Assembly (NCBI GenBank): GCA_034620365.1
Contig: JAQGEQ010000002.1
Location: 1 to 64,000, forward strand
From: Pegea sp. RAD2-039
Taxonomy: Eukaryota; Chordata; Thaliacea; Salpida; Salpidae
Length of the DNA: 64,000 nt
Direction of reading: 5' to 3'
Shown here: positions 13,958-57,776 of the stretch, one piece after another
Numbering within the stretch: position 1 is the first letter of the stretch
Layout: each line of letters starts with the position of its first letter
Notes under the pieces: model-generated
Told to the model about the DNA's origin: nothing
Database searches by the model: none
Seen by the model: only the letters and a program-made list of their open reading frames with translations
Program-made: the position numbers and the translations under genes

Positions 13958-15869
13958 ATGGAACGTTATCAAGATGATACATTTGATTTGTGGTTAGAAG
14001 ACAATAATTATGATGTAGAAATTGAAACTTCTGCAGATGAATTCTTTCCTCCTGATGAAGAAGGTTGGAGTCCTTCAGTAATAGAGCAAATAAAATATCA
14101 CATTGAAAATTATTGTGATGAAAAAAACCAAAATAACGGAGATAATTGGTGGAAAGTGGATTCAAATAATGATAATAACATCTCTGATATGCCATCTGAA
14201 GAATCTGGTGCTTCTACTAGTCAAGGGGGAGATATAATCACTGTATCTTCATCTGAAACCTTTGTAAGTATCTTTATTTTGTTATTTATGTTTAGTGTCA
14301 AAATGTTAGTTGTTTCTACATATAAAAATAATAGTTTGATAGATGATTTTACTATTATTTTTACTTTTCTGATTGTAATTTTTTATTCACAATTAATCTA
14401 GATTGTATAATTTTACTGGGATTCTTATTTGCTTTAAAGCTTTTTAAGGCAGAACTAATAGAAAATCCAATTTATTTTCAGCCTAAACAACAAGAAGATG
14501 TTACTTCTTCTAGATTAGCGGTTGAAGAAGGTAATTTTCAACTTTATTTAATCTTATGATGTTATAATGTATGATTTTATTGTTTGTTTATGTTGTTCTA
14601 GTTTGGTTTTATAACTAAGTTTTTTTGATAGGTTACCACATGTAACCCATTTACATTATAGATAATATATTATTATTAAATAATAGTGATCTGTTTTGAT
14701 CAGTAATAGGACTAAAACTCTTAACATGACCAATAGAACTAGCAACCAGGGGTTTTCAATTGATCTTATTGTTACAGAATGTCCTGAAGCCATTCAAGAA
14801 CAACTTCTTTTGACTAATAAAACTAACAACCAAAATTTGGATGGAAATGTTCTTGATGATGAAGATCGAATAAAGAACGATCTTGTTGATGGTGATAAAG
14901 ATGACAATGAAGAACTGCTTGAAAATGTTCTTGATAATGAACATGAAGATTTAGAACATGCCCTAAAAGATGATAACAAAAGTTAGAAGATATTTATTTA
15001 GTAAAATACTATTAAATTATTTAAAAATTACTTTAATTGAATAATCTAAAAAGTTAACTAATCTAATTAGTCACAAAGACAATCTTATGAATAACTACAA
15101 GTAACTTTTTCCAGCTAAAAGTCCTCAGAAAGAATTAAAGAAACTGAAAAGGAATCCTCAATTACTCAAAAGAAGTAAATAAAACTTTTTCAATTATTTG
15201 CATAAAAATATCTCTTATTAATGTTTCTACAACTAGAATAATATTAATTTTGTAATAAAACAATTTTTTGCAGATGATCTTTATCACTGCGAGTTTTGTG
15301 AAGACATTTTTGCTGATAAGAAGGTTTTTGAATTTCATCTTAAAAGAAAACACCCAACTGATAAAAAGTATCCATGCAATCTCTGTGACTATTCTGCTGA
15401 TTTAAAAAGCAATCTCAAGCAACACCAATTGACTCACAGTAAAGTGAAAGATTTTGTTTGTCGCTTGTGTGGAATGAGCTTTAGCAGAAAAAATGATCTC
15501 AACCGACATAATGAGTCAGTTCACTTAAAGGAGACGTATCAATGTGAGATTTGCGAAAAATCTTTTAGTCGGAAAAGTAGCAAACAAAGACACATGCTTA
15601 CTACTCACGAGAAGCATAAAGCTTTTGTTTGTAGTGAATGTGGAAAGACATTTGGGCAATCATGTAATCTTACAAGACACAAACGCATGCACACAGGCGA
15701 GAAGTTGTTTCGTTGCAAGATTTGTTCAACATCATTTACAGATTCATGTAATTTGAAAAAACATGAAGTCATCATCCACACCAAAAAGCTCCCACACAAT
15801 TGCAGCATTTGTGAAAAAGGATTTATGTGTCCTTCTCGTTTAGAAAATCATCTAAGAACTCACGATTGA
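13958..15869 (+). CDS. Zinc-finger gene B: family-1 exon 1, acidic exon, seven C2H2 fingers
   Basis: Proposed exons are 13958-14263, 14482-14530, 14778-14981, 15115-15174 and 15274-15869. They total 1215 nt (404 aa) with every GT-AG junction in phase. Exon 1 has DEFFPPDEEGWSPSVIEQIK and a Ser/Thr-rich end. Exon 3 is strongly acidic (DNEHEDLEHALKDDNK). Exon 4 is basic and links to seven C2H2 fingers, the fifth (GQSCNLTRHKRMHTGEK) with a classic linker. This predicts a nuclear DNA-binding regulator. Exon 3 is taken to start at GTTACAG|AATGTCC because the acceptor at 14703 gives the wrong phase. No homeodomain-like insert is present, unlike gene C. Promoter-like repeats lie directly upstream. 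Confidence 0.8.
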
Positions 15870-17086
15870 TTTTATTGTTATTTTAATAAAAGTTTCATTC
15901 ACTCGATTTGTTGTGATGTCAATTTGAAGGGTTAAAAAGTTTTTAGTCGAAAGAATTGTAATTAATAAAATCAAATTATCAATCAACAAATAGTTTTAAA
16001 TAATTGAATTAATTTTAATTGGATCAATTAGTTACTTGCTAAGCTGTCTAACTTGCAAATGAAAAGCAAGAAAGGAACTAAGTCAATTCAAAATAATCAA
16101 ATTATTGATGGTGATATATTTTCTTTGTTTTATAAATGATATAAAATGTTGGAAACACTGATAGTACAGCTGATAATAAAGCTGGTCAAGTAATCTTTGA
16201 ATTAATAAAAATATTTTAACGAAAATAAACTGAAACACTAAAAAGATAAAACTTCAAACAAAAAAATCGAAAATCAAATAAAGAGTTTCAAAGAACACTT
16301 TGAAAATAATTTCAAATATAAAAACAGGTTTCAAAAATATTTTGTTAAAAATTCACAGATTCAACAGGGACCCCTCTTGCTATAATCTTGATAAAGTCCC
16401 TAGCATTCAAGATCACAAATGGGTCTCTTGTTTTGAAAGTTGTTCTAACCGTCATGGATCCCTTGATTAGATCCAATTCACCTTTAATAGTCTAAAAAAA
16501 TATTAAAAATATAAAAAATCACTCTAAAGTTTAAGAAACCAACTTTTATGAATTAAATTTAGTCAGTTGTTGAAGTTATGTATAAATAACAACAGAATCA
16601 AAAAAGTTTTTATCAAGATATATTTATTTATTTATATATCATAAAAATGACTTTAAATAGATAGATAAAAGCTTTTATTATTTATACAATTAAAAAAAAA
16701 CTTTTATAAAAATAAATAAATTTATTTATATGTTATTATAAATTGATCTTAAAACCAAATAAGTTTAATAGTTATATAAATTCATATTTATAAAGATTAT
16801 TTAAAGATAAAATACATTTATATATAGCTTTTAAACATCTAATTTGATTAAGAAATATAAATCTTTTAAAAAGTATATATAATAATTATATCATTAATAA
16901 ATTTAGAGATTACTTAAAATTTTTATAACCATTGTTTTAAATTAAAAGAATTATAAAAAACTTGTTATATAAACTCATAAATAATTTTGAATTAAAAAAT
17001 AATATACAAACTTTTTGTATAATTAAAAATAGTTTAAAAAACATTTAAAGTTACAGGGATGTATTCAAAAGATTGAAAAGTTTTTG

Positions 17087-17269
17087 ATGAAGAAGATAGT
17101 ATTCGGTAAAATTGTTCTATTTGTTCTTATATTAGTCCAAGTAAGTTTGTAGTTATAAAATAAGTTCATTATAAAATTGTTCTTCTTCAGCTTACTGGGA
17201 TCGCGGTTAGTTTGACTTTCATAACTCAAGCTGAAGCAGGAATTGCTGATGAAAATATTACAAACCCAA
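17087..17269 (+). CDS. Short secreted or membrane peptide, two exons (5' part)
   Basis: Exon 1 (17087-17140) encodes MKKIVFGKIVLFVLILVQ and meets GTAAGT. A 50-bp intron ends in TTCTTCTTCAG, and exon 2 (17191-17269) continues LTGIAVSLTFITQAEAGIAD up to a GTATGT donor. Together they form a strong signal peptide with a hydrophobic core and a likely cleavage site after AEA. Further exons were not found in the next kilobase, so the product is partial. A TTACAG acceptor stands 31 bp before the ATG. The mature protein is unknown. It lies on the opposite strand to the KRR1-like pseudogene, inside its intron. Confidence 0.45.
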
Positions 17270-23740: not shown

Positions 23741-24519
23741 ATTTTTGAATATTTATTATGGAGGTAGAGGATTAAATTGTTGATCTTTTGACTGTTCCTA
23801 AAGATTTGAAATATAAAGAAGAAGACTTTAAAAGTCGTCTTCTTGAAGAAAGTTCTTTTTTAACGTGATTTCCTAAATATAGAGAAAAATATATTCAGCA
23901 AATGTGGTCTGTTGCTGAAGAAGTTTTGAAAAACTTTGTAAGTTGTTAATTAGATATTTTTTAATATTTAAGTGAGTTATTTGTGGCAAAAGTAGTAGTA
24001 ACAATAAATAGTGTAAAATTTTTCATCAATGTTTTTCTTTTAATTTTAGTGTGACATTAGTTTTGATGTATAAAATTTTATCTTAATCAAATAAATAAAT
24101 TTATCAATTCTATATTAAATTTTTTTGTTTAAAATTTCAGTTCGGTTGTTTGACAGGGCTTAAGGGAATAAGCTTTAAAGTACTTTTTGATTTTTTGATA
24201 ATGTGGAAATTTACATATGATCCACAACAGGAAGAAAAACGTGTTCAACGTGAACAAGAAAAGATGCGTCGACAACAAGAAGAAAAGCAGATACTTCGTC
24301 GGCATAACGAACAAAAAACGTCGTGAACAAGAAGAAAGACGTTATCAACGTTCAGAAACTTCTGCAAATGAATTCTTTCCTCCTGATGAAGTAATGTGGA
24401 GTCTTTCAGAAATAGAGCGTGTAAAGTATCACATTGAAAAATATTATGATGAAAAAAACCAAAATAATGGAAATGGTTTATGTAAAGTAGATTATGGAAG
24501 TATCTGGTGCTTCTACTAG
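23741..24519 (+). pseudogene. KRR1: KRR1-like pseudogene copy 3 with chimeric coiled-coil ORF
   Basis: The exon ending at 23937 (TTT|GTAAGT) carries the same KRR1-like segment and the same TAA and TGA stops as copy 1. The next exon opens at 24141 with the KH-like and coiled-coil segment, then the family-1 exon-1 module (NEFFPPDEVMWSLSEIERVK). A run of six A at 24313-24318, against five in copy 1, shifts the frame in the coiled coil. It is therefore more damaged than the 3-kb copy. Confidence 0.65.
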
Positions 24520-26837: not shown

Positions 26838-29193
26838 TCAATTATGACTTCTCAGATGCTTTTTTAAAACAGAAGGACACATAAATCCTTTTTTACAAAT
26901 GCTGCAATTATGGGGAAAGTTTCTGGTGTGGTTGATGATTTCGTGTTGCTTCAAATTAGCTGATTGCGTGAATGATGTTGAGCAAAACTTGCAATGAAAC
27001 AACTTCTCGCCTGTGTGCATGCGTTTGTGTCTTGTAAGATTACATGATTGCCCAAATGACTTCCCACATTCACTACAAACAAAAGCTTTATGCTTCTCGT
27101 GAGTAGTAAGCATGTGTCTTTGTTTGCCACTTTCCAGACTAAAAGATTTTTCACAAATCTCACATTGATAAGTCTTCTTTAAGTGAACTGCCTCATTATG
27201 TTGTTTGAGGGTCCTTTTTTTTCCAAAGCTTTTTTCACACAAGCGACAAACAAAATCTTTCACTTTACTGTGGGTTATTTGATGTTGTTTTAGATTGCTT
27301 TTTAAATCAGCAGAATAGTTACAGAGATTGCATGGATACTTTTTATTAGATGGATGTTTTCTTTTAAGATGAAAATCAAAAATTTTCTTATCACCAAAAA
27401 TGTCTTCACAAAACTCGCAGTGATAAAGATCATCTGCAAAAAATTGTTTTGTTACAAAATTAATTTTATTCTAGTACAAGAAACATTATGAAGATATTTT
27501 TATACAAATAATTGAAAAAGTTTAATTTACTTCTTTTGAGTAATTGAGGATTCCTTTTCAGTTTCTTTATTTCTTTCTGAGGACTTTTAGCTGGAAAAAG
27601 TTACTTGTAGTTATTCATAAGATTGTTTTTGTGACTAATTAGATTAGTTAACTTTTTAGAAGTTTTTAATTAAAGTAATTCTTAAATAATTTTATATTAT
27701 TTTACTAAATAAATATCTTCTAACTTTTATTTTCATCTTTTGGGGCATCTTCTAAATCTTCATGTTCATTATCAAGAACATTTTCAAGCATTTTTTCATT
27801 ATCATCTGCAGTATCCTCATTGTCATCTTTATCACCATCACCAAGAGCGTTCTTTATTTGATCTTCATAATCACAACCATCAACAGCAATTTTGATGTGA
27901 TCTTCATCATCACAACCATCCAGAGCATTTTCAATGTGATCTTTATTTCCATTTTCAAAATCGCAATCATTAACGTCATTTAGATCTTTTGGGGCATCTT
28001 CATGTTCATTATCAAGAACAATTTCAAGCAGTTTTTCATTGCCATCTTCATCACCATCACCAAGAGCGTTCTTCATTTGATCTTCATCATCAAGAACATT
28101 TCCATCCAAATTTTCATAATCATCACTTTCAACAACATCTTTAACTGTATCTTTAGCAACAGAATCATCATCCAATTTATTTTGGTTGTTAGTTTTATTA
28201 GTCAAAAGAAGTTGTTCTTGAAAGACTTCAGGACATTCTGTAACAATAAGATCAATTGAAAACCCCTGGTTGCTAGTTCTATTGGTCATGTTAAGGGTTT
28301 TAGTGCTATTCCTTATCAAAACAGATCACTATTATTTAATAATAATATACTATCTATAATGTAAATGGGTTACTGTTCGTAACCTATTAAAATAACATAG
28401 TTATAAAATCAAACACCAAAAACATAAACAAACAATAAAATCATATATTATAACATCATAAGACCATTTAAACTTGAAATTTACCTTCTTCAACCAATAT
28501 TCTAGAAGAATTGAAATGTTGTTGTTGTTTAGGCTGAAAAGAAATTTGGTTTTCTATTAGTTCTGCCTTAAAAAGGTATAAAGCAAATAAAAATCCCAGT
28601 AAAATTATACAATCTAGATTATTTGTGAATAAAAGATTACAAGCAGTTAAGTAAAAATAATAGTAAAATCAGCTATCAAATTATTATTGTTATATGTAGA
28701 AACAACTAACATTTTGAGAGTAAACATAAATCAACAAAATAAAGATACTTACAAAGGTTTCAGATGAAGATACAGTGTTTATATCTCCCCCTTGACTTGT
28801 AGAAGCAACAGATTCTTCAGATAGCATATCAGAGGTGTTATTATCATCATGTGAAGCCATTGTCAATAAACCATTTCCATTATTTTGTCTTTTTGCTTCA
28901 TAATGTTGTACAATTTGATACTTTGCATACTCTATTTCTGAAGGACTCCAACTTATTTTATTCTGAAGCCTTTTCATGTTAAACCAACGCTGAATGAATT
29001 TATATGAAAGGCCAGACTTTTCAGAGAGTTTAATTAGTTGATCTTCTGGTGGATAAGGGAAAGCACAAAAATAGTTTATAAATTCTAACTCAATAGTGGG
29101 AAGAATAAAATTATCTGCAGGAGTTTCATCAGCTACAGCATAATTATTCTCTTCTAACCACAAATCAGTTGTAATAACTTGATAAAATTCCAT
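26838..29193 (-). CDS. Gene C: homeodomain-like insert, acidic repeats and seven C2H2 fingers
   Basis: Minus-strand exons are 29193-28753, 28533-28485, 28237-27725, 27590-27531 and 27433-26838. They total 1659 nt (552 aa), all in phase. Exon 1 is 45 codons longer than in B. The extra part is homeodomain-like: YPPEDQLIKLSEKSGLS then YKFIQRWFNMKRLQNK, with helix-3 WF and the final Arg but Met where the usual Asn51 stands. Exon 3 holds tandem acidic repeats such as DGCDDEDHIKIAVDGCDYED. The last exon has seven C2H2 fingers (YHCEFC to HNCSIC). This predicts a nuclear transcription regulator with two DNA-binding domain types. All splice sites look normal. It is the only intact homeodomain-bearing member here. 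Confidence 0.8.
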
Positions 29194-33678: not shown

Positions 33679-33900
33679 TGGAAGTTTATCAAGTTATTAC
33701 AGGTGATTTGTGTTTAGAAGAGATATTTACTAATCTATTTGTAATCTTTTATAAGTAAATAATCTACTTTTTATAATTTTACTGGGATTCTTATTTGCTT
33801 TATAGGTTTGTAAGGCAGAACTAATACAAGACCAAATTTATTTTTAGCCTAAACAACAAAAAGATTTCAATTCTTCAAGATTATTGTTGAAGAAGGTAAA
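33679..33900 (+). pseudogene. Truncated family-1 start exon, plus copy
   Basis: The frame begins MEVYQVITGDLCLEEIFTNL and stops at TAA after FVIFYK. The join between exon 1 and intron-1 sequence is the same as in gene A and in the 61.9-kb copy, so all three descend from one deletion. Exon-2 sequence follows at 33849-33896 with one base fewer than in intact members. The frame does not reach the tail exon at 34134, so this copy is probably not translated as a family-1 protein. Confidence 0.55.
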
Positions 33901-34133
33901 TTTCAACTTTAAATGATCTTATGATGTTATAATATATGATTTTATTGTTTGTTTATGTTTTTGTGTTTGATTTTATAACTAAGTTATTTTAATATTGGAA
34001 GTTTAATATAATGAACTGAGCAAACCTTTGAACTAATATTGTTAAAGTATTTGATAAATCTTTTCTTAAACTGGTTTTTATAAATTTAAACTTTTAATAA
34101 TCTAATGACTGTTAATATTATTGCCTGACCAAG

Positions 34134-34320
34134 AAATTGTGATACAAGTTTATATTCAACAAAATGTTTAACTTCAAACAACAAATTTGATTTCAAAGGA
34201 TCAAAAACTGATAGTGAAGATTGTGGTGGATGTGAAAGTTGTTTTAATCAACCAAAGATTAAAAGAAGAAAGTTGGAAAGTAAAACTGTTCTAAGTACAA
34301 CTTCTAAACTAAAGTTTTAA
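34134..34320 (+). CDS. Cysteine-rich and basic tail exon, copy 1
   Basis: The open terminal exon reads KGSKTDSEDCGGCESCFNQ then PKIKRRKLESKTVLSTTSKL and a stop. It has CxxCxxC-type spacing followed by a basic, nuclear-localisation-like segment. The same exon recurs at about 61468-61268 on the minus strand, and its SEDCGGCESCF core recurs at 45460-45420 behind the coiled-coil exon of family 2. The start is uncertain (acceptor CCAAG at 34133 assumed). Family unknown. Confidence 0.45.
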
Positions 34321-34439
34321 TGTTTCTAGTGTTATAAGTAATTACAAATAATGAAATATTTATTACTAACAGTAACCCATGTACATTATAGATAATATAT
34401 TATTATTAAATAATAGTGATCTGTTTTGATCAGGAATCA

Positions 34440-34482
34440 AAATCTCCTCCTTTCCCAATCACACCCGTTAGTTCAGAGGAAA
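34440..34482 (-). pseudogene. KH GxxG fragment fused to the family-1 intron 2/exon 3 edge
   Basis: The family-1 sequence ends at GATCAGGAATC and continues directly into the complement of a KH loop coding sequence (minus strand QSGVIGKGGDF). The same junction, inverted, is at about 61115-61160, so the fusion predates that duplication. Confidence 0.45.
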
Positions 34483-34699
34483 TAAAAAGATTAAAGAAGA
34501 AAAAGAATTGGTAAAAACTGCAGCTTTCATCTTTACTTTCTCTATTGTAGTGATGTATAAATCAAAGTATAGAAATAAATAATAAATAGCCATAAATCAT
34601 TTTCAGTTTAAATACTCGGTTATTTTTTATTTGTAATTTTTCATTTTTCTATTTGTTTGTTATATTTTACATCGCTTGTTACTGAATATTTTGAAACAT

Positions 34700-37289: not shown

Positions 37290-37412
37290 AGTAAAAAAAC
37301 TTAGAATTGTTAAGCTCTATTGAATACATTAAAAAAGAAATTCAGGATGCTGATGACACAAAAATGGATTGACGAAGGCCTACAATCGTTTTCAATAAAA
37401 AAGATTAAATAG
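37290..37412 (+). pseudogene. Fusion of a cytohesin fragment with the APC13 tail
   Basis: Bases 37300-37366 match the minus strand of the cytohesin pseudogene near 59860-59930 (the LNSIEFIKK region). They run straight into KWIDEGLQSFSIKKIK and a stop, the lost end of APC13. Compared with the 58-60 kb copy, the segment between these two points is deleted. Confidence 0.6.
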
Positions 37413-37552
37413 AAGTTTCGCTCCTAATAAAAATTTAATTTTCTAAATTTTTGTCAAATTAAATCATAATGTGAAGTAGATGATTAATATTAAAAAAAAA
37501 ACTTTTTAGACAAAGAAATTTTATTTGTATTAAACGACATCACGATCACATT

Positions 37553-37692
37553 TTACTCCTGACCAACAATTCGACACGCTTGCTTGATGCTGCTCTCCCA
37601 AATGTTCAGTAAATCGGAAATATGATGCTTAGAACAATCTTCTGTGTTTTCTATTCGCTCACTCATCACTTCTAACAATACTTCATGAAACG
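37553..37692 (-). pseudogene. Isolated last exon of MED15
   Basis: 140 nt, the same length as the last exon of gene F (57637-57776) and almost identical to it. It has the acceptor CAG and encodes HEVLLEVMSERIENTEDCSK, then LLNIWESSIKQACRIVGQE and a stop. No upstream MED15 exons are next to it. It is the inverted partner of the 57.6-58.0 kb block. Confidence 0.8.
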
Positions 37693-37699
37693 CTGAAAA

Positions 37700-38880
37700 A
37701 AAAGAACTAACTTAAAAAGAAATAAAAAAAAAATATATTAAAAAATGAATATATTTTGTATAATTTAAAATCAATTACTGTCATTGCATTAAATTTTAAT
37801 ATCTAAATTTTACCAGTTGTTGTTTTAAGGCTTGCTTAAAATTAACAAGAATTTTGTTCCGCTAAGTGTCGCTAGAGAACCTATAATGTAAACAAATGTT
37901 CTACTTCAATTGTTAATTATTAGTAAAGAAATTTTTGATAGAAATTATTTATGAATAACACTTTAACATCATTTCAAATTAATGAGATAAAACTTGTTGT
38001 GGTATATAACATTTATCAAAAAAGTAAGAAAAAATATTGACCTGAATAACAAAGTTTTATTTATTTGTCTAGTATTAAACATTTCAAAATTCTTAATTAA
38101 TAGAAGTCAAAAGAAACTACTAATTTTGAAACAAAATGTTTGAATTAAATTATCAAAATATATTCTACATTGAGTTTGTTTTCCATAATAATAGAAGAAA
38201 TAAACGTTTTCAAAATTTGGTTATTCAAAGTTTTAATAGTTATAAGGTGGTTATGTCGGCGAGCGACTTCGAGATGACAATGTCTGATGGAGTAATCATA
38301 TGTATAAAAGTTTGTAGTTTCTAATCTCTTCACTCAGAATTACTAGATATGCAAAACAACTTTATTTGAAAGCCAAATTTTAATAGTAAAGATCTGCTGG
38401 GCTTTTGAATTGAAATTTTCGAGAAAACAAATTTGATAGCTCAGATGTGCTCAGAAAGTTGCTTGTGTATTTAATTCGACATATAAGTACAAATCTCTTT
38501 TCAGTAAAATAAATAAAATAACAAACTGATAAAATGAAATTCTCAGAGCCGACCATCTAGCTAACACTTTAATTAGCTTTTGCAACTGCATCCTGCAGAT
38601 CCGCGCATCTGCTATTACTTCATGGTCATTGATCAAATTTTGCAATTAAACAATCTTGTTTAAACTGTTGGCTCTTTAATTGTATGATTGTTCATCAATA
38701 GATTTAATATACCTTTTCACTTTTTCTACTTTAATAAATTTTTAGTCTTTGGCTACCATTGAGACTGATTTTCAAAAGTTTAAGCCTCTAAATTGAACCA
38801 AGAATTCATTTAAGGCCTGTTTCATTAAAGTTTACATTAAAAGTTTGCTTTTAATAGATATTACGATAATAACTCTATAG
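37700..38880. other. No gene recognised apart from a MFEL repeat
   Basis: This stretch holds the third copy of the short MFEL frame at 38136-38324. There the frame runs on into a different tail (VVMSASDFEMTMSDGVIIC). The rest is AT-rich sequence without recognisable exons. The 5' end of the full-length retrotransposon probably lies near 38880. Confidence 0.45.
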
Positions 38881-38970: not shown

Positions 38971-39650
38971 TTGTCTGACATCAGCAACACCATATCCACT
39001 GAATTGACCAAATTAAAATCTGAAATCGGCAACGATGTTGCCAAAATCAATGAAAAGATTTCTATCTTATCTAAATCTATGGATGAACTGGAAGCCTCCA
39101 CAAAGAAGCCTCTCACATGGGCCTCAGTTGTTGGTAATTCTGGATCCGAAAAAATACTAGCGTGGTGCAACTTCTTGCCAAGAAGGTTACTGACACGCAC
39201 AAGAAACTTACTCTGGACCGGGAGGATAGAGAAAACAATGTCATCATCTTTGGTGTCCCTGAGACTGATAAAGACGATGACATCAAGACTTTTAATCAAA
39301 TGTGCACTCAAGGCCTTGGTGCTGTGGACACTCCAAAAGTTTCAATGACCAGACTCGGGGCAAAAAGATCAAATCATAAAAGACCGTTAAAAGTTTCCTT
39401 TCAGGAAAGATGGGACAAACGTAAGTTTCTTGCTAAGCTGTATAAACTTAAGCAGGACGAAAAATTCCAGGGCATCAGAGTAGCACATGATATGTGTGAA
39501 GATGATCGCGTAGAAAATAAGCGTCTTCTAAAAGAGCCGTACAGCCGAAATCAGAAAGAGCAACCAACTGATTTCAAATACAAAGTTCGAGGTCCACCAT
39601 GGGCTTTACAGATTGTGAAGGTCTTTTCAAAAAACGGAAGTGCAAAATAA
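38971..39650 (+). pseudogene. Retrotransposon ORF1, frameshifted
   Basis: The first part (38971 to about 39150) encodes a coiled-coil stretch, MSDISNTISTELTKLKSEIG, through PLTWASVVGNS. The frame then shifts in a run of A at about 39149-39154, and the rest continues one frame over with DREDRENNVIIFGVPETDKD, an RRM-like ORF1 core, to a stop at 39650. The nucleic-acid-binding ORF1 protein of such elements packages RNA. The single shift could be a mutation or a sequencing slip in the homopolymer. Confidence 0.75.
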
Positions 39651-42646
39651 CCACTGGATCCACATCACCCTTATTCAACCTCTCTTCGCACAAAATTATT
39701 AATACTATGCTTCCAGCCCAAGATAACAGTACACAGAAGACTACCACCAAATCTTACAAGTGTCAAAAAGACAATTTTTCTTTTATATTAGGTATGTTTT
39801 TCAACGCACGGTCAATTGTCAACAAAATTTTCGAATTGAAAGCTCTTTTGCTTTCTCAAGATTTTACATTTGTTTTCATTACCGAAACTTGGTTGAAACC
39901 CTTTTATCCTGACTCCTTTCTGGATGACAGTGATCTTTTTCGTGCTTTGCGCTATGATAGACTGTTTGATAGAGGCGGCGGTGTTTGTGTAATCTATAAA
40001 ACATCACTGGCAGCCATGATTTCAAGAATTAAGATAAATACCATTGATTGCCCAGGATTTGAGATTATTGCTTTCAATTTTCATTACTCAAAGTCTAAGT
40101 TTTCCCGCTTTATATGTACATACCTACCACCGTCTAAAGTTAACGATGAGGTTACTATTAAGGCCTTATTGAAGGTTCTGAAAAGCCTTGTTTGTCCTGA
40201 GATGTATATTCTCGGGGATTTTAATTTTAGTAGAATTGATTGGAATAACCCAAATTTAGCATTCAATGGAAAAATGTTTAATTTGAATGGAGACAAAACT
40301 AATTTAGCCAATCTGAGTCATGTCTTTGTAAACTTCCTTGATGCCAATAATCTATCTCAGATGGTTACTTTTCCAACCCAAGTTAGTGGTAATACATTGG
40401 ATCTTCTCATCACATCAAAACCTGATAACGTTATCTACGTTGATCAAAATGAACCTTTTGCTCTGACATGCGATCACAACATGATTGAATTCAAGCTCCA
40501 ACAAACTTTTTCTACGAACGTTAAAACTCCAAGCATACGGAACTTTTATCGTGGAAATTATAACAGTATAAACAAGTTTTTATCAGGTGTTGACTGGATT
40601 TCTGTTTTCAACTCTACCGAAGACATCAATGATATCTACTCAAGGTTTACTAACATTGTTAATGATTCAATTAAAAAGTTCATACCTTTATATAGAGTCA
40701 ACAAAAAACCACACTTGCCAAGATATTTAAGGAATTTACAGCATTTGAAAAACCTCTTATACAAACAAACTAAAGCAGATCCTTCCATCAAACCTCTATA
40801 CAAAGATCTTTGTCTAGTCTACAAGAAATCAGTTTATAGCCTCTATTTAGGAAAAGAAAGTGCAATCTTATCTTCACCTAGCAAGAAAACGTTTTTTGGC
40901 TTCATTAATCACAAGCTTAAGGCGAGATCTCATCTACCTCCCTTGCTTGATAACGCCAATCAGCTGGTGATGGAACCAAAGAATAAAGCTGAATTGCTAA
41001 ACAAACAATTTGAAAAGGTTTTTATAACCGATGATGGCAATACTCCTACTATTTCCTACTCCAATATCCTTTCAAATATCTCTGAGATGGTAGATCTAGA
41101 CATAACAGTTGATATAGTATCTAAGGCTATTTCTTCTCTAAAATCAACAGTTTCCAACACCCCAGATCAAATCCCAGCTTTGTTTTTAAGAAAAAGTACT
41201 TCTTCTTTAGCGCTACTCTTATCGCTACTCTTTAACATGACTCTTAAGCGGGGAAGACTTCCACAAATTTGGAAGAATGCTATTATTACTCCAATTTATA
41301 AGAAGGGTCCTAGAAACACTGCACTTAACTACAGACCAGTTTCGCTTACTTCGGTTATCTGCAGAACTCAAGAACACATCATTCACAACCATATAACTAG
41401 CCATTTGACGGAGCATCATCTAATATCTGATGCCCAGCATGGCTTTGTTAAGCAAAGATCTTCTTTGACTCAACATCTCACTTTTTTCAATGAGCTTACA
41501 GCTCATTACGAAAGTAATACTCCATGTGACATCATATACCTTGATTTTGCTAAAGCGTTTGATTCTGTTCCACACAACAAGCTCATTACTGTATTGAAAA
41601 ACATAAAAATCAGCAACTCTATCTTAAAATGGATTGAAGATTTCTTATCAGGTAGAACCCAACGAACCCGTGTAGAAAGATCTTTATCTACTCCTAGTAA
41701 AGTCACCAGCGGCGTTCCTCAGGGTTCCGTTCTGGGTCCACTTCTCTTTTTGATTTTCATTGAAGACCTCATCAGAAGACTAATAACAGTAGACAATGTC
41801 AGTGTGTTTGTGTATGCAGATGACATCAAGCTATTATCTGGTTCTCACTCAAAACTCCAAACTGCACTAAACATTGTAGAAAACTGGTCTGCGAATTGGC
41901 AACTTAAAATCCAGCCAACAAAGTCTGAAGTTATAACATTCTCCCGTAAGCCAGCGGCCAACTTCAGCAACCAATACTACATCAATGGATCCATTCTTGA
42001 ACGAGTATCCTCAGTCATAGACCTCGGCATTACTCTGACATCTGACTTCAAATGGCACAGTTATGTTTCCAGAATCTTTGGAAAATCTATCAAGCTTGTC
42101 CACCTCATCATAAAGACTTTTAATTCTAAAGATCCATGGTTTTTCGTCAACCTTTTCAAACTGTACATACGCCCTATTCTTGAATACAATATCAGTGCAT
42201 GGATGCCATATCAAGTTGGTGATATCAGAAAAATCGAATCTGTTCAGGCAAAATTTACGAGATTGGTTTGCAGGAAACTTAATATCAAATACGAGAGTTA
42301 TAAGCATCGTCTCAGCTTCTTCAATCTAGATACTTTGGAAATCCGAAGAATTAAATACGACCTTATTCTGATTTTTAAAATTATTCACAACCTAATTGAT
42401 CTTCAGTTTGATGACTTTTTCTCCATTAGTCCCTCCCTCAAGGTATATCAACTTAGAAGACATAAATTACATCTTAATAAGCCCACTCCACCAGCTACCT
42501 TAACCAGATTAAGTTTTTTCTCATACCGCACAATCAGTACATGGAACAATCTGCCATCAGAGATTGTCATGTCAAAATCACTTATGCTGTTCAAGAAAAA
42601 GCTGAATTGTTATAACATCGCCAACATTTCCATTTCTAAACTGTGA
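39599..42646 (+). CDS. Retrotransposon ORF2: endonuclease and reverse transcriptase
   Basis: One uninterrupted 1015-codon frame overlaps ORF1 by 52 nt. The N-terminal third is an APE-type endonuclease (FNARSIVNK, ITETWL, LGDFNFSRIDW, LDLLITS, CDHN). The middle is a reverse transcriptase with LDFAKAFDSVPHNK, SGVPQGSVLGPLLF and the catalytic YADD. The C-terminal part (FFSYRTISTWNNLPSEIV) matches the tail found in CR1/L2/Jockey-like elements. The enzyme nicks target DNA and copies the element RNA at the nick. All core motifs are present, so it may be active or only recently silent. It is the likely type of source for the truncated copies, although those are older. Confidence 0.93.
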   Translation: MGFTDCEGLFKKRKCKITTGSTSPLFNLSSHKIINTMLPAQDNSTQKTTTKSYKCQKDNFSFILGMFFNARSIVNKIFELKALLLSQDFTFVFITETWLKPFYPDSFLDDSDLFRALRYDRLFDRGGGVCVIYKTSLAAMISRIKINTIDCPGFEIIAFNFHYSKSKFSRFICTYLPPSKVNDEVTIKALLKVLKSLVCPEMYILGDFNFSRIDWNNPNLAFNGKMFNLNGDKTNLANLSHVFVNFLDANNLSQMVTFPTQVSGNTLDLLITSKPDNVIYVDQNEPFALTCDHNMIEFKLQQTFSTNVKTPSIRNFYRGNYNSINKFLSGVDWISVFNSTEDINDIYSRFTNIVNDSIKKFIPLYRVNKKPHLPRYLRNLQHLKNLLYKQTKADPSIKPLYKDLCLVYKKSVYSLYLGKESAILSSPSKKTFFGFINHKLKARSHLPPLLDNANQLVMEPKNKAELLNKQFEKVFITDDGNTPTISYSNILSNISEMVDLDITVDIVSKAISSLKSTVSNTPDQIPALFLRKSTSSLALLLSLLFNMTLKRGRLPQIWKNAIITPIYKKGPRNTALNYRPVSLTSVICRTQEHIIHNHITSHLTEHHLISDAQHGFVKQRSSLTQHLTFFNELTAHYESNTPCDIIYLDFAKAFDSVPHNKLITVLKNIKISNSILKWIEDFLSGRTQRTRVERSLSTPSKVTSGVPQGSVLGPLLFLIFIEDLIRRLITVDNVSVFVYADDIKLLSGSHSKLQTALNIVENWSANWQLKIQPTKSEVITFSRKPAANFSNQYYINGSILERVSSVIDLGITLTSDFKWHSYVSRIFGKSIKLVHLIIKTFNSKDPWFFVNLFKLYIRPILEYNISAWMPYQVGDIRKIESVQAKFTRLVCRKLNIKYESYKHRLSFFNLDTLEIRRIKYDLILIFKIIHNLIDLQFDDFFSISPSLKVYQLRRHKLHLNKPTPPATLTRLSFFSYRTISTWNNLPSEIVMSKSLMLFKKKLNCYNIANISISKL

Positions 42647-46838: not shown

Positions 46839-48245
46839 TTTTAACACTTAAACGATAATTCAAATTGACTAAACGTATCTCACTGGTTTTGTTTCATTTG
46901 TTTAAGCGAGTTTGAAATTGATGACATGACTATTATGGCGTTTTGATAACTCTAAATGGATTAGTTTTAAAACTATCATGAAATTTAAACCTAAAAACCT
47001 TTTTAGGAAATTTAATCAGAAAAGAATTAAAATTTCTTACCAAACTGAGTCTACTCTTAGAAGTTTTATATAAATTTGAACTTTATGAATTTCTGGGATA
47101 TCCTAAAAAATATTATAAAATTGTATTACCAAAATTTAGAATAAGAAGAACTTTAATTCTAATGCTCTTATCAAAGATTATTTCGATGATTTTTTATTCT
47201 ACAAATTGCTTTTGTTTCATACTGTGCCGAGCTTATTGAACTTTTATTTTCTGTTCTGCAGCTGGTTGTAACGTATGATCTTGTAGATTTTGCAACTAAT
47301 TAAAATAGGTTGGGGTACACAAGTTTCGTTTTATAATAGTTAAAAGTATGCAGAACTTTTATAATAGTCTCAAATTAAAAAAAATAAAACTTTAAAACTG
47401 GTTACTTTCTATTTAAATACATTTTAGTAAATTGGAAAAACATAACTTATAATATTTTTTTCAAAATGCTTCAAGTTTTCAACTTTGTTTCTTTCACATT
47501 ATTGCAAAACTTTACTAATTTGTATTTTTAATTTAGGGTTGTAGTTTTACTTAATGATTCTATCAAAAACATGGTGTTGCAGCTGATAGTGCATTAAGAG
47601 TTCTTTATAGCATATTTAAAACAAATTACAGTAGAATATTTTACCGCATATGTTAATATCTTATCAAGCTAGGTTCGAAGGCGTGGTGGACAGTCGTTAT
47701 TTGCTAGCTTTGTTAATTTCATGAAGCTCTACATAGGAATAGCTTTAATTTATTTAAATGTATAATTGTTTTATTTTCCATTTGGCACTCATTTAAGAGT
47801 AACTGTGAATATTTAAAGTTTTAAGAGAATATTTTATTCTAATTCTGCTAAATCATTTTGCTTCAATCTTACAAAATATTTTCAAATTTTATTTCTTAAA
47901 TTTTATAAGTTTAATATCAGATTATTTTAGTTCTTTTCTTAATCCTTAAAAGCAATCTTACATGATGTTTATTAATAAAAAGTCTTTTACCTTTTCTAAA
48001 TAAATGTTTATTCCAGTGATTTTCATTGTTTCTTATCATGTTTTTAAAATAATTAATTCTATTTTGAAGTTTGTTTATAGATATTTTTATGCATTTTTAT
48101 ATTTAGATATACATTTATAAAATAAAATATAAATTAAATAATTTAAACTGCTGTATAAGTTTTATACCAAACCTTTCTTTTTCAATTAAACTTAAGTTAA
48201 GCTTATTAATATTTCTTTTATAAACAGACTTAGTAATTGATAATA

Positions 48246-49971
48246 ATGGAAAGTTATCAAGATGATACAGTTGATTTGTGGTTAGAAGAGAATAATTTTG
48301 ATGTAGCTGAGGAAACTTCTGCAGTTGAATTCTTTCCTCCTGATGAAGAAGGTTGGAGTCCTTCAGAAATAGAACGTGTAAAGTATCACATTGCAAATTA
48401 TTATAATGATAAAAAGCAAAATAATGGAAATGATTTTATGACAATGGCTTCACATGTTGATAATAACATCTCTGATATGCCATCTGAAGAATCTGGTGCT
48501 TCTACTAGTCAAGGGGGAGATATAAACACTGTATCTTCATCTGAAACCTTTGTAAGTATCTTTATTTTGTTGATTTATGTTTAGTGTCAAAATGTTAGTT
48601 GTTTCTACATATAAAAATAATTATTTGATAAATGATTTAAGTATTATTTTTACTAATCTGTTTGTAATCTTTTATAAACAAATAATCTAGATTGTATAAT
48701 TTTATTGGCATTCTTATTTGCTTTATAGGTTTGTAAGACAGAACTAATAGAAAATCCAATTTATTTTCAGCCTAAACAACAAGAAGATGTTACTTCTTCT
48801 AGATTAGCGGTTGAAGAAGGTAAATTTCAACTTTAAATGATCTTATGATGTTATAATATATGATTTTATTGTTTGTTTATGTTTTTGGTGTTTGATTTTA
48901 TAACTAAGTTATTTTAATGTGGAAGGTTTAATATTATGAACTGAGAAAACCTTTGAACTAATATTGTTAAAGTGTTTGATAAATCTTTTCTTAAACTGGT
49001 TTTTATAATTTCAAACTTTTAATAATCTAATTTGTTAATTCTTATTTGTTCTAGTTGCAAACGATATGTATAGTAATACTGACTGGGACACTGTTATTTA
49101 TGTTCATAATTCTAAACTAAAGCCTGGAGCTGCCAAGTCTAAAGCTAGTGTCAATGATTCTTTGAGAAATGGAGGAGCTGACTTAGATACTAGACAGAAG
49201 TATAATGTTGGTAGCAATAAGAAGCAAGCTGTATCTAAAGATACACTGAAGCTAGACCAGCAAACTGAAGAGCTTCATCATAACACCGTTTCTCTTTCTG
49301 TTGGAAGTCTGATTCAGCAAGGGCGTCAACAAAAGCAGATGACTCAGAAGGAGCTTGGAACAAAGACCAATGAAATAGCTCAAGTTATTAATGAGTATGA
49401 AAAAGAAAGTTCTGCTGAATTAAATGTTCATAAGCGCAAACATACCGGTGAGAAGCCTTTCCAATGTAGAATTTGTAGAAAAGCCTTCAGTCGATCTTGC
49501 CATCTTGAAGTTCACTTGAGATCACACACTGAAGAGAAGCGTTTTCATTGTGGAGTTTGTGAAAAAGCTTTCAAACGATCTACCTATCTTGAAGTTCACT
49601 TGAGATCACACACTGGTGAGAAGCCTTTCCAATGTGAAATTTGTGAAAAAGCCTTTAGACAATCTGGCCATCTTGAAGTTCACATGAGATCACATACTGA
49701 TGAGAAGCCTTTTCAGTGTAAAATTTGCGGAAATGCCTTCAAACAATCTACTCATCTGATAATTCATATGAGATCACACAATGATGAGAAGCCTTTTCAG
49801 TGTGAAATTTGTGAAAAAAGCTTTACACAATCAAATAACTTAACCAGACACATCCGATCACACATTGGTGAAAAGCCTTTCCAATGTGAAGTTTGTGGAA
49901 AAGCCTTCAAACAATCTAATAATTTGGTAGTTCACTTGAGATTACATACTGGTGAAAAGCCTTCTCAATAA
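48246..49971 (+). CDS. Gene E: family-1 exon 1 fused to MBF1/EDF1 domain and six C2H2 fingers
   Basis: Exons are 48246-48551, 48771-48819 and 49055-49971. They total 1272 nt (423 aa), with all joins in phase. Exons 1-2 are the family-1 module (EFFPPDEEGWSPSEIERVK). Exon 3 begins like multiprotein bridging factor 1: DWDTVIYV, AAKSKASVNDSLRNGGADLD, KLDQQTEELHHNTVSLSVG, LIQQGRQQKQMTQKELGTKT. It follows MBF1 as far as the VINEYE part of the Cro/C1-type HTH. There it switches, without an intron, into half a finger and six full C2H2 fingers with TGEK-type linkers. MBF1 normally bridges activators and TBP. The fusion predicts a DNA-binding coactivator. A seventh finger remnant follows the TAA, so the end may be shortened. 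Confidence 0.85.
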
Positions 49972-50417: not shown

Positions 50418-50868
50418 GAACGATGACGTCATAAAGCAATAAAGATAAATTTTAAGATAAAAATGTCGAGGTAATGATGTATAAAATCGATTTTTGCGCT
50501 TTTTAATTTTGCTAATCTCAGAAAAGAGTTTTCCGGTTGAAGCAATAAATACTCGAATAACAGTTCCACGTTCAGAAGCAGTAGCAATCATATCACTGTT
50601 TAAATCACCACAAATAGCCACCAACTTATGTTTATGGGCTTCAAGTACCATATGAATCTTCATATTCTTAAATCAAAAACTTCTACATGCCCACGGTCAC
50701 AATGATATCCATAAGTCACTAATATTTTCTGTTCTTCTAGAAAGCAAATAGTTCCATTTTTATCATGCATTTGACTCATATATTTCAAGGATTCATCCTT
50801 TGATCTTTCATTTAATCTAAAATTATCTTTAATAATCAATGTGATGGAAGTAAAACGAAAATTTCTAT
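50418..50868 (-). pseudogene. WIPI/Atg18 (PROPPIN) fragment
   Basis: The minus strand encodes GYHCDRGHVEVFDLRI, then one frame over VLEAHKHKLVAICGDLNSDM and IATASERGTVIRVF. This matches the blade of WIPI/Atg18 beta-propellers that precedes the phosphoinositide-binding FRRG motif. A one-base frameshift at about 50662 splits the blade, and the FRRG motif itself is not found. The upstream edge joins the duplicated flank of the zinc-finger genes at about 50868. These proteins act in autophagy; this piece is not functional alone. Confidence 0.7.
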
Positions 50869-51215: not shown

Positions 51216-53348
51216 TCAGTTGTGAGTTCTCAGATGTTTTTTTAAAACAGAAGGACAATAAAACCCTTTTTTACAAATGCTACAGATATTAGGAAAGTTT
51301 CTGGTGTGCTTGAAGATTTCGTGTTGCTTCAAATTAGATGAATTCCTAAATGATGTTGAGCAAATCTTGCAATGAAACAACTTCTCGCCTGTGTGCATGC
51401 GTTTTTATTTTATAAGATTACATGATTGCCCAAATGTCCTTCCACATTGATTACAAACAAAAGCTTTTTGCTTCTCGTGAGTAGTACGAATGTGTCTTTG
51501 TTTGTTGCTTTTCAGACTAAAAGATTTTTCGCAAATCTCACATTGATAGGTCTCCTTTAAGTGAACTGACTCATAATGCCGGTAATGGTTTCTTTTTGTT
51601 CCAAAGCTTTTTTCACACAAGTGACAAACAAAATTTTTCACTTTACTATGGGTTGTTTGGTGTAGTTTGAGATTGCTTCTAAAATCAGTAGAGTAGTCAC
51701 AGAGATTGCATGGATACTTTTTATCAGTTGGATGTTTTCTTTTAAGATGAAATTCAAAAACCTTCTTATCAGCAAAAATGTCTTCACAAAACTCGCAGTG
51801 GTAAAGATCATCTGCAAAAAATTGTTTTATTACAAAATTAATTTTATTCTAGTACAAGAAACATTATGAAGATATTTTTATACAAATAATTGAAAAAGTT
51901 TAATTTACTTCTTTTGAGTAATTCAGGATTCCTTTTCAGTTTCTTTACTTCTTTCTGAGGACTGTTAGCTGTGAAAAGTTACTTGTAATTATTCATAAGA
52001 TTGTCTTCGTGACTAATTAGATTAGTTAACTTTTTTGATTTTTTAATTAAAGTAATTCTTAAATAATTTAATTTAATTTTACTTTATAAATATCTTCTAA
52101 CATTTGTTTTCATCTTTTGGACCATCTTCTAAATCTTCATGTTCCTTATCAAGAACATTTTCAAGCATTTTTTCATTATCATCTGCAGAATCCTCATTGT
52201 CATCTTTATCACCATCACCAAGAGCATTCTTTATTTGATCTTTATCATCAAGAATATTTCCATCCAAATATCCATAGTCATCATTTTTAACCTCTTCAAC
52301 TGAATCTTTATCAACAGAATCATCATCCAATTTATTTTGGTTGTTAGTTTTATTAGTCAAAAGAAGTTGTTCTTGAATGGCTTCAGGACATTCTGTAACA
52401 ATAAGATCAATTGAAAACCAATGATTGCTAGTTCTATTGGTCATGTTAAGGGTTTTAGTGCTGTTCCTGATCAAAACAGATCACTATTATTTAATAATAA
52501 CATATTATCTATAATGCAAATGGGTTACTGTTCGTAACCTATTAAAATAACTTAGTTATAAAACCAAACTAGAAAAACATAAACAAACAATAAAATCATA
52601 TATTATAACATCATAAGATCATTTGAAGTTGAAATTTACCTTCTTCAACCAATAATCTAGAAGAAGTAACATCTTCTTGTTGTTTAGGTTGGAAATAAAT
52701 TGGATTTTCTATTAGTTCTGTCTCACAAACCTATAAAGCAAATAAGAATGCCAATAAAATTATACAATCTAGATTATTTGTTTATAAAAGATTACAAACA
52801 GATTAGTAAAAATAATACTAAAACCATCTATCAAATTATTATTGTTATATGTATAAACAAATAAAATTTTGATACTAAGCATAAATTAACAAAATAAAGA
52901 TACTTACAAAGGTTTCAGATGAAGATACAGTGTTTAGATCTACTCTTTGACTTGTAGAAGCACCAGATTCTTCAGATGGCATATCAAAGATGTTATTATC
53001 ATCATGTGAAGCCATTGTCAATAAACCATTTCCATTATTTTGTCTTTCTTTCTCATAATGTTGTATAATTTGATATTTTGCATATTCTATTTCTAAAGGA
53101 CTCCAACTTATTTTATTCTGAAGCCTTTTTATGTTAAACCAACGCTGAATGAATTTATATGAAAGGCCAGATTTTTCAAAGAGTTTAATTAGTTGATCTT
53201 ATGGTGGATAAGGGAAAGCACAAAAATAGTTTATAAATTCTAGCTCAATAGTGGGAAGAATAAAATTATCTGCAGGAGTTTCATCAGCTACAGCATAATT
53301 ATTCTCTTCTAACCACAAATCAGTTGTAATAACTTGATAAAATTCCAT
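51216..53348 (-). pseudogene. Gene D: dead homeodomain/zinc-finger paralogue of gene C
   Basis: It has the same five blocks as gene C with identical lengths for exon 1 (53348-52908, 441 nt), exon 2 (52688-52640), exon 4 (51968-51909) and exon 5 (51811-51216). Lesions: TAA replaces a Glu codon in the homeodomain-like region at 53199-53201; the exon-2 acceptor is AA instead of AG at 52689-52690; and TAA at 51405-51407 cuts the fifth finger. The exon-3 acidic region (52392-52102) is open. Three separate lesions make loss of function clear, barring assembly error. Confidence 0.85.
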
Positions 53349-54720: not shown

Positions 54721-54994
54721 GGTTTGGCATAGCATAAATTATTCGTTGTAAAATATATTTGTAAGAAAAGGTTTCTATGTATTAAATTTGATTGTATTAA
54801 TTAGATTTTGTATTAATTTTCTAGTACTTTGGGTATGTTGTTATTATGATGTATTATTTATTGGCACGATTATTTAACTATTTAATTAAATGTTATTACT
54901 AAAAAAGTTTATTTTAAATGTAAGATACATATTTCTGATTAAAATTCTTCATTTCTTTCTTTTAATTTGAGGCTTTTTATATTAGTAGAGTTAA

Positions 54995-55190: not shown

Positions 55191-55864
55191 ATAAATTATT
55201 AGATTGCTATATATTCTCTTATAGGTTATTCATGATTTAAAACAAATTTAACATTAAAAATTTAGCTTGAAAGTAAACTGATAAATACATTAAATTAAAC
55301 TTAAAATTATTTTTGTTTTAATAAGCTTATTATTATTTGCGAAGTAAATTACAAATATATGTAATTATTAACTTATAATGATGAATAAATCAAAATTGTG
55401 TATCTTAAACTATTTTTAAGTATTTTTGTTTTGAATTAAATCAAACACATTTAATTATACTGAAAAGATTGATATTTTCTTAACAAATTTACTTAATAAA
55501 ACTATAAATCTTTTTGTAGAATAAATTATCTAAAAATCATATAATTTGTATAGATAGGTATTGTGATAAATTTTAAAGTTGTTTATAAGATATTTAAAAA
55601 ACTATTTGAAAAACATTAGATTTTTTAATTAAATTTTTTAAGTTGTCATTATATGAATTTCTATTTTTTAAAACATTTTTAGTTTTCTATACTTTTTAAT
55701 AACTTACTACTTTAAATGAATATTGGACTGAGTTTTGCAAATTCTTAGAAACTATAAATGTTTAGAAAAAAGTATATAATTATTAGTTTAATATTTGAAT
55801 TAATTTGTTTTCTTTTTTGCCAATGATTTATGTTGTGCCAAATTCCATTAAAATTTAAGAATGA
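55190..55864. other. AT-rich stretch with no gene recognised
   Basis: No supportable exon, repeat or RNA gene. It separates an old retrotransposon end from the promoter-like repeat of gene F. Confidence 0.5.
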
Positions 55865-56325
55865 CATTTAAAGCAGTTTATTATCCGTAATTTCGAAAAT
55901 ATATTTTGCTTTTACGGAATAGGCTAGTCGTTTCTTGATTATTATTTCACTTTTCAAAATTACAAAAGCAAACTTTTGAGTTTGGGCGTTCCCATTCTAA
56001 GAGAATTTCTTTTCATTTTTCACTTTTTGTCATCGAATTAGGATGTTAAATTTAACGCTGATAATTACTAAATATCTAGTTTAATTGTTATAAGTTCATA
56101 TTGATCTAGCTTTATCTATTTTTTAATTATTAAACTGAGTTTGAAGCAGCTAAATGCAAGCAAACATTTATTTAGTGCATATATTTAGGTTCAGAAGATT
56201 TGTTAATGGCTTTTTAGATGTTTTTTCTTACATATCGTTTTTTTTTTGCTTTTTTTATGTTTAAGAACTTTTTAATTTTCATTAATTTTTCAAAAACAGA
56301 AAAATTTCCTGATCTTATAAATACC
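55865..56325 (+). promoter_or_regulatory. Promoter-like repeat upstream of gene F
   Basis: A single copy of the repeat also found ahead of gene B, from CATTTAAAGCAGTTTATTAT to the TATAAATA box at 56316-56323. That box is 125 bp before the gene F ATG. An acceptor-like TTTTTTAAACAG lies just before ACTTAGTAATTGATAATAATGG. Sharing this block ties genes B and F to the same regulatory source. Confidence 0.55.
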
Positions 56326-56440
56326 AAAATAGTGTAAAATTTGTTGTTACCTTTGGTATTTAGAAAAACTTTCTTTTTCAATTAAACTTAAGTTAAGCTT
56401 ATCAATATATTTTTTTAAACAGACTTAGTAATTGATAATA

Positions 56441-57776
56441 ATGGAAAGTTATCAAGATGATCTATTTTTATTATGGTTAGAGGAGAATAATTTTGATGAA
56501 ACTTCTGCAGATGAATTCTTTCCTCCTGATGAAGTAAGTTGGAGTCCTTCAGAAGTAAAGCAAACAGAGTATCACTTTGAAAAATATTTTGACGAAAAAA
56601 ACCAAAATAATGGAGATGATTGGTGGAAAGTAGATTCAGATGATGATAATAACATCTCTGATATGCCATCTGAAAAATCTGTTGCTTCTACAAGTCAAAG
56701 AGGAGATCTAAACGCTGTATCTTCATCTGAAACCTTTGTAAGTATCTTTATTTTGTTAATTTAAGTTTAATGTCAAAATGTTAGTTGTTTCTTTAATTAT
56801 TATTTTCAACTTTATTCCTGTTAATTTGTTTTTAATATTTCTTGAAAAACGGTTTTCTTGATTTAATTAAATTTGAAATTTGTGACTACAGCAGCATCCA
56901 AGACCTTCGTCTCCTCATCATCATATGTGTCAGTCGAATTCCAATACGATTGGAAGTACAACCAAGTCTTCTTTGCCCAATCATACATTGAAACAACGTA
57001 CCTTTGGTCCTGTTGTGCAAATATTGAGGTGATTATACAATGTGAGAATTACTTACATACTTTAAATTAGAAGAAATTTCTTTTCCACAAACCTTTTTTT
57101 TATAAATACTGGTTTTTGTTGATAATTTTCAGACCTGGTATTCTACCAAATAGTAAGTTGATTGCTAATGAAACAGTTCAAGAGATCAAACAGACTGAAA
57201 GTAAAAAGAAGGTTCCAACTGCAATACTTCGTGAAATTACTCGTTTGAGAGGAAAATACAAATTCAAGATTAACCAAAACTGGATGGGAGCTAGCAACCT
57301 GTCTTCACACATTCAGTTCCTCGTTTATCTCGGTATAAGAGTCATTTTCAAACTTTTATCCAATCACAACCGTTCTATTAGTTTAATTTTCTTATCTTTT
57401 AACTTTTTTTCGACTTTGTCATATTTTTAGGTGATTCTCAGTCACCAGCTGTTCCACCAATCCGCATCAACACTCCTCGTGACTACCCGGAGTCAAGTGC
57501 CATCTGGATGGGACTACATAGTCCTGATACCCATCAATTTCAGGATCGATCTACTTTAACTGATACTCAGCGCGATTATAAAAGTTTGATTTTTTATTTT
57601 TGTTTATTTCTGTTTAAGTTAGTTGTTTTTTTTCAGCGTTTCATGAAGTATTATTAGAAGTGATGAGTGAGCGAATAGAAAACACAGAAGATTGTTCTAA
57701 GCATCATATTTCCGATTTACTAAACATTTGGGAGAGCAGCATCAAGCAAGCGTGTCGAATTGTTGGTCAGGAGTAA
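56441..57776 (+). CDS. Gene F: family-1 exon 1 fused in frame to the MED15 C-terminal region
   Basis: Exons are 56441-56737, 56892-57028, 57133-57332, 57431-57583 and 57637-57776. They total 927 nt (308 aa), with every GT-AG junction in phase. The first 99 residues are the family-1 module (DEFFPPDEVSWSPSEVKQ, Ser/Thr-rich end). The rest matches the C-terminal domain of the Mediator tail subunit MED15: AILREITRLRGKYKFKIN, PAVPPIRINTPRDYPESSAI and LLNIWESSIKQACRI. The region that recruits the KIX domain in full MED15 is absent. The product could enter Mediator while lacking the activator-binding end, or be non-functional. The exon at 56892 fits MED15 only in this frame. The alternative open frame is a shadow. 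Confidence 0.82.

Follow-up and report, generated by a model that had tools for sequence, protein, structure and literature searches.

The question raised by the first 64,000 bases of contig C363 (here called the window; the contig has 111,588 bases, in a genome of 105.7 Mb on 387 contigs) is whether a single first exon serves there as a ready-made start for several unrelated genes. An initial annotation had described this exon at the head of genes A, B, C, E and F, joined in frame to C2H2 fingers with an acidic exon, to an MBF1 domain plus fingers or to MED15 exons, and had proposed a local gene-birth system in which one promoter and N-terminus are reused. Judged from the DNA, the supposed cassette is instead exon 1 of a genome-wide homeobox-acidic-C2H2 family that has expanded to dozens of copies; A, B, C and a broken neighbor, D, are paralogues within it and not new joins, and E and F are true chimeras. 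These two quite probably arose by the copying of segments within the expanded family, and are predicted to be transcribed and cis-spliced to give chimeric proteins. The window has a GC content of 25.75%, and the genome looks to be of tunicate type from its MBF1 similarity (among named animals, Ciona, Phallusia and Styela stand at 76-79% and the others at 67% or less, within the best 120 of 755), its exact Ciona spliced leader and its leader array, both discussed below.

The family gene is laid out as an exon 1 with a homeodomain, a short exon 2, an acidic exon, a short basic exon 4 and a C2H2 exon with seven fingers. Searching the genome with exon 1 of C (150 of 155 candidates were scored, and counts of homeobox exon-1 places are lower bounds) gave at least 36 places spanning its full 147 residues, 34 being free of internal stops, plus many partial or broken ones; with six copies of a homeobox-less form, 42 full-length copies are at hand. 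The exon chain was read in 30 of the 36 homeobox loci, with about 1.5 kb of flank each: all 30 show a GTAA donor, with exon 2 following at +215 to +223, the acidic exon is present in 29 and exon 4 in 28, and in four the flank reached the C2H2 exon. The initial annotation had looked to a genome-wide search for exon 1 to count its partners, and foreign partners are indeed found for E and F, but in 38 of the 42 full-length copies a C2H2 exon of the family itself follows on that strand after 1.0-1.7 kb (34 of the 36 homeobox copies, at 1.1-1.7 kb, and four of the six homeobox-less ones). These positions come from the best 62 of the 80 rows of a genome-wide C2H2 search; none of the remaining 18 rows lies on a contig with an exon-1 copy missing its C2H2 exon. 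The four copies without one are E and F, which run into foreign genes, and two truncated loci, L051 and L056. In L051 (contig C70) the acidic exon is cut and followed by DNA also present at window positions 50512-50737, while in L056 (C251) family homology ends after intron 2 and is followed by DNA resembling window positions 33723-35117. The DNA 3' of both is repeated sequence in which no known gene was recognized; the two loci are possible further joins. Elsewhere, exon-1 relatives occur several to a contig on C48, C204, C212, C223 and C238, mostly with in-frame stops, and look like decayed arrays.

A 466-amino-acid JGI protein, P0001, shows 48% identity over 96% of residues 1-170 of C and has the order of the family: homeodomain, acidic stretch, fingers. 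It is encoded on a contig of 1452 nt and, since this leaves no space for introns, looks like a spliced transcript; its best matches in the present genome are at 66% or less (one short-piece row reaches 67%), so that it is not encoded here and comes from elsewhere. From this layout and the genome-wide exon chain it follows that exon 1, the acidic exon and the fingers form one gene of some age and that A, B and C are paralogues. The five open lengths first proposed were all reproduced (A 1077, B 1215, C 1659, E 1272 and F 927 nt, with no internal stop in B, C, E and F). They had been offered as evidence of splicing on the ground that each is an exact multiple of a codon; because the exon chain is family-wide, those of A, B and C are inherited and are no evidence of new splicing, and that of F depends on a donor that is new relative to its parent. 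In the same way, the C2H2 and acidic exons of A, B and C, taken for unrelated modules, belong to the family's own body, and the joins that stand are those of E to MBF1 and fingers and of F to MED15. Both foreign partners are transcription regulators, as had been said of all of them.

The anatomy, parents and junctions of E can be read directly from the DNA. The gene lies on the plus strand and opens with family DNA (48246-48819, with homeobox-less exon 1 at 48246-48551 and exon 2 at 48771-48819), continues with a copy of an MBF1 coding exon (49055-49401, from C48:105685-106029, with 9 nt of 5' leader) and ends in a C2H2 array of another zinc-finger family (49402-49971, stop at 49969-49971). 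The 1272-nt model has no stop or frameshift. MBF1 has two matches in the genome, E and the parent on C48; the closest copies of the finger array, at C3:503177-503729 and C8:32808-33337, show 79-80% DNA identity. The 5' junction falls in intron 2, in phase 1, where family DNA extends to about 49039 and the MBF1 leader starts from about 49045 (junction at about 49039-49047); the second junction, from MBF1 to fingers near 49400, falls inside the exon. Of the 113 residues of the MBF1 part, 16 are not those of the parent, and dS is 0.23. This divergence exceeds that of the exon-1 block between E and B (90.4% identical), as would be expected if MBF1 was copied earlier or if gene conversion acted within the family.

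Gene F, on the same strand, consists of a homeobox-less exon 1 (56441-56737) and a 3.4-kb copy from contig C42. The C42 homology runs from 56776 to 60177 with small gaps, at 91-95% identity, and carries the last four MED15 exons (56892-57028, 57133-57332, 57431-57583 and 57637-57776); further on, a piece of a Sec7 exon follows on the minus strand (59192-59563). The MED15 exon used as a query gave two matches in the genome, F and C42. The 5' junction is in intron 1, in phase 0, the C42 homology from 56776 overlapping family intron homology that extends to 56792. Med15_C (PF21539) is found on F at 9.7e-15, so that the C-terminal domain of MED15, and that end only, is represented. The 927-nt model is open only by way of a donor, after 57028, that the MED15 parent does not use there; the parental donor gives 19 internal stops. 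This donor arose with changes in F; it agrees with the U1 consensus in 6 of 9 positions, and the native donor in 5. On the minus strand of the window, 35536-37743 hold another partial copy, the third, of the MED15 end and of DNA beyond it.

The rival that survives best is that E and F are dead juxtapositions, left by segmental copying: each frame would match by accident, with a chance of 1 in 3, and neither gene would yield a functional chimeric protein. We consider this rather unlikely. In its favor, F requires its new donor after a 2-nt deletion in the first MED15 exon, which also has a 3-nt insertion and is unconstrained (dN 0.099, dS 0.052; 1.5 silent and 9.5 replacing changes), and F may be decaying. 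In the MBF1 part of E, conserved residues are altered: at 15 of the 16 differences the six outgroups (P0002, P0003, P0005, P0006, P0007 and P0009) share the parent's state only, and PF08523, the N-terminal domain, is kept but HTH_3, found in the parent, is no longer found, leaving one of the two domains of an MBF1 protein. A protein look-up with the N-terminus of E (residues 1-130) returned 60 candidates, none at an E-value of 1 or less. The sister copy D is broken, and L051 and L056 have lost their 3' bodies to other joins. To these points against functional chimeras may be added that the window contains no copy of the spliced leader, and that the case for trans-splicing made below is drawn from an acceptor and from leader copies in the genome, not from reads.

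What speaks against dead junctions is, first, the intact 1272-nt frame of E. In a simple simulation of neutral change it acquired no stop in 1-1.5% of runs when 0.06 changes per site were assumed and in 0-0.05% when 0.115 were; this range is our own estimate for the E branch, and the simulation takes the three parts to have been together throughout. Silent changes are enriched both in the MBF1 part of E (14 of 32; dN/dS 0.30, binomial P 0.003) and in MED15 exons b-d of F (8 silent and 11 replacing, or 8/19; dN/dS 0.36, P 0.03), each count including the constrained parent branch. Because nearly all of the amino-acid change is on the E side, dN/dS on E's own branch must exceed 0.30, and halving the silent changes gives an estimate of about 0.7. 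The new donor of F, with its better match to U1, also stands against the rival. Our reading of E is that its frame is held by some constraint while the usual MBF1 role has been lost.

How the chimeras would be expressed touches the proposal that they share one promoter, which the flanks contradict: that of F matches B (55863-56792 to 13373-14317, 90%), and that of E matches A (47546-48291 to 7677-6926, 90%). An acceptor-like T-rich tract ending in ACAG lies at 48209-48227 on the plus strand, 18 nt before the ATG of E, and ACAG followed by A is found within 30 nt of the ATG in all 39 upstream rows, from 37 distinct places (C and D are counted twice), which are related copies and not independent; as background, ACAG occurs in 577 of 9139 random 30-nt stretches of the window. 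The same acceptor precedes the ATG in the older relatives L079, L081 and L082, of which L079 and L082 are closely similar. As a side observation, L079 (C1:6132000-6135000, close to the contig end) and L082 (C125) have a divergent homeobox exon 1; L079 also contains 5.8S and large-subunit rRNA, and L082 shares part of its flank, with no rRNA match at the gathering score. The 16-nt spliced leader (SL) given for Ciona (PMC7986045), ATTCTATTTGAATAAG, has 272 exact copies in the genome, against none for the reversed control. Contig C4 carries an array of them, 33 listed copies mostly at a spacing of about 199 bases, and GTAAGT directly follows the leader in both complete C4 repeats that were read. 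According to a second Ciona study, the 5' untranslated region (UTR) holds about 60% of trans-splice acceptors, and preference goes to the first one that is functional (PMC11155486). The conserved acceptor makes it probable that exon 1 receives the spliced leader in trans, in which case it would not have to bring a promoter along. In MBF1, the acceptor about 9 nt ahead of the ATG could be the same kind of site, used in cis by E. For both chimeras we infer transcription, trans-splicing, a protein and a function.

The idea of an active cassette system, repeatedly giving one promoter and N-terminus to new partners, draws what strength it has from there being three kinds of foreign partner on the homeobox-less exon: MBF1 with fingers, MED15, and a coiled-coil repeat piece at eight places. 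In the last, the junction is internal to an exon and meets exon 1 at its middle (ETSANEFFPPDE...); it occurs at 3183-3497 (plus strand) and 24201-24516 in the window, at three places on C203, and on C370, C251 and C369; the C369 copy has four TGA codons and the second window copy is split. The piece, called coiled-coil from a reading of its letters, matches long open frames on C23, C278, C238, C36, C128 and other contigs. Since the fusion here is inside an exon and exon 1 is not the start, this case does not fit a reused start; nor do the differing flanks of E and F or the family C2H2 exon that lies downstream of most copies. Joins to recognized foreign genes occur in 2 of the 42 full-length copies, so that they do not amount to a dedicated gene-birth system; the cassette reading is very unlikely.

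Less probable again, and hardly credible, is that exon 1 travels as cargo of a transposable element. The window does hold an open frame of LINE type (39572-42646), in which endonuclease and reverse transcriptase domains are found, and a homeobox-less exon-1 copy, L007 (C160:44422-47661), is cut by a stretch of stacked spliced leaders beside LINE-like sequence, so labeled by reading its translation, as if the insert came from a trans-spliced LINE transcript. Against this, the duplicated blocks retain introns and have flanks of varied extent, and no common element boundary was noticed, without a systematic search for one. Least probable of all is an assembly artefact of collapsed or misjoined repeats whose blocks are not adjacent. 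In its favor, the region is full of similar repeats; against it, the blocks of E and F are not stray parent pieces, since both copies differ from their parents: E in its MBF1 part from the sole other copy found (dS 0.23) and F by 5-9% from C42 over 3.4 kb.

Both chimeras begin with the homeobox-less form of exon 1. The initial annotation had seen one and the same exon, of the form EFFPPDE, in genes B, C, E and F. The shared exon with its phase-0 donor (SSETF and then GTAAGTAT) is present in B (13958-14263), C (28753-29193, minus strand), E (48246-48551) and F (56441-56737), but C does not have the EFFPPDE form, carrying a homeodomain instead. Exon 1 of C has 147 codons, or 441 nt, versus 306 nt in B and E and 297 nt in F. 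With the Pfam Homeodomain model, run on C and P0001, C scores 22.5 bits, just below the cut-off of 22.9, and P0001 26.3 bits, above it. The structure predicted for exon 1 of C from 24 sequences has a pLDDT of about 90 or more over residues 31-100, and its top matches in the PDB are homeodomains; their probability is 1.00, but no E-value is stronger than 0.017. Twenty family rows align with this form. The homeobox form of exon 1 thus carries a three-helix homeodomain. In exon 1 of B, E and F, which is 135-144 nt shorter, no homeodomain match was found at E-values up to 10. The six full-length homeobox-less copies with a donor are B, E, F and three on contig C6, the third of which has one TGA; B and the C6 copies run into the canonical family body. 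A tree of 36 rows, from which one member of an identical pair was omitted, places the six together on the same side of a branch; the support for it, 85/95, does not reach the 95/80 mark of the tool, and the shuffle control was weak, 70 of 500 being as low. Pairs of exon 1 give dN/dS values of 0.5-1.8 on 99-102 codons, pairs with C spanning the homeodomain gap, and positive selection is not claimed; rows with D and the third C6 copy were excluded, their values being inflated by misalignment that we attribute to a dropped stop shifting the codons.

These features suggest the following course of events for E and F. One branch of the family would have lost the homeodomain, leaving an exon 1 that is 135 nt shorter (306 vs 441 nt). 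Copying of DNA segments would then have placed two homeobox-less 5' ends before foreign DNA, with the 5' junctions in introns: in E just 5' of the acceptor of the MBF1 copy, which shares one exon with the foreign finger array, and in F in the intron ahead of the last four MED15 exons. Exon 2, in phase 1, and exon 1, in phase 0, by chance suit the acceptors of their partners, giving predicted cis-spliced chimeric proteins, and the 5' ends of both mRNAs would probably come from SL trans-splicing at the acceptor that precedes the ATG by 18 nt.

The remaining genes of the window have the body of the family. Gene B (13958-15869, plus strand, 1215 nt) has the homeobox-less exon 1 followed by exon 2 (14482-14530), the acidic exon (14778-14981), exon 4 (15115-15174) and the C2H2 exon (15274-15869). 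Gene C (26838-29193, minus strand, 1659 nt) has the homeodomain exon 1 (29193-28753), exon 2 (28533-28485), acidic exon (28237-27725), exon 4 (27590-27531) and C2H2 exon (27433-26838). Gene D (51219-53348, minus strand) is a canonical copy broken by a TAA in exon 1 and another in the C2H2 exon. Gene A (5450-6971, minus strand; exons 6971-6776, 6562-6338, 6204-6145 and 6045-5450; 1077 nt open) does begin with a shortened form of the exon, as had been proposed, but not a simple short exon: its exon 6971-6776 comprises a truncated exon 1, an exonized intron 1 and exon 2, and the intron is translated because a deletion took the 3' part of exon 1 and the donor. This short form has one further locus on each of contigs C370, C369 and C203 (L083, L084 and L085), with the frame kept over that stretch, and the exonized intron retains its frame and a hydrophobic stretch, with small changes, in the four copies. 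Elsewhere in the window, near 33.7 and 61.9 kb, lie two A-form fragments whose exonized stretch contains stops.

The mechanism, segmental copying with junctions in introns, is already known in kind. Core duplicons such as NPIP/LCR16a of primates consist of a fast-evolving gene family in a duplication-prone block, and the tunicate family is like them in that. HYDIN2 is a fusion gene from an incomplete segmental duplication, with proven fusion transcripts and a new promoter (PMC5345166). Like it, E and F are partial gene copies that gained a 5' end from outside the duplication, with altered frames and relaxed selection; unlike it, they are known from the genome alone, take their 5' end from a multi-copy family and occur in a genome that has a spliced leader. 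A family in Schistosoma japonicum shares a signal sequence and core promoter, and its expression was seen; its authors could not place exact breakpoints and judged chimeric structures unnecessary (PMC3434034). The two cases have in common a multi-copy 5' end, similar regulatory DNA and copying at the DNA level, but here both parents and junctions are located. With the trans-spliced genes of Ciona the family shares an identical 16-nt leader and an acceptor in the leader region just before the ATG, which is common there (PMC7986045, PMC11155486), the difference being that the present family is known from a genomic acceptor and SL genes alone. The literature on gene fusion and duplication, as searched, gave general cases and none on this family, and we claim nothing beyond that search.

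A broader reading, which we hold to be unlikely but worth stating, is that an exon flanked by an SL acceptor of its own on the 5' side and by a cis donor on the 3' side makes a portable start, E and F being two births of this kind. Copied before a gene with an acceptor near its ATG, such an exon would turn this site, which in a case like MBF1 may have been the SL acceptor of the parent, to use in cis, and would yield a capped chimeric mRNA without carrying a promoter. The spliced leader could then explain how a moved start exon is expressed immediately, and E and F would link the N-terminus of a homeodomain-less regulator to a piece of a coactivator, MBF1 or the MED15 C-terminus. As chimeras with parents and junctions still legible, they are good material on the origin of new regulators. 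If their proteins are made, the N-terminus of the family would be tied to parts of the general transcription machinery; if they are not, E and F would be a clear case of open frames arising at duplication junctions.

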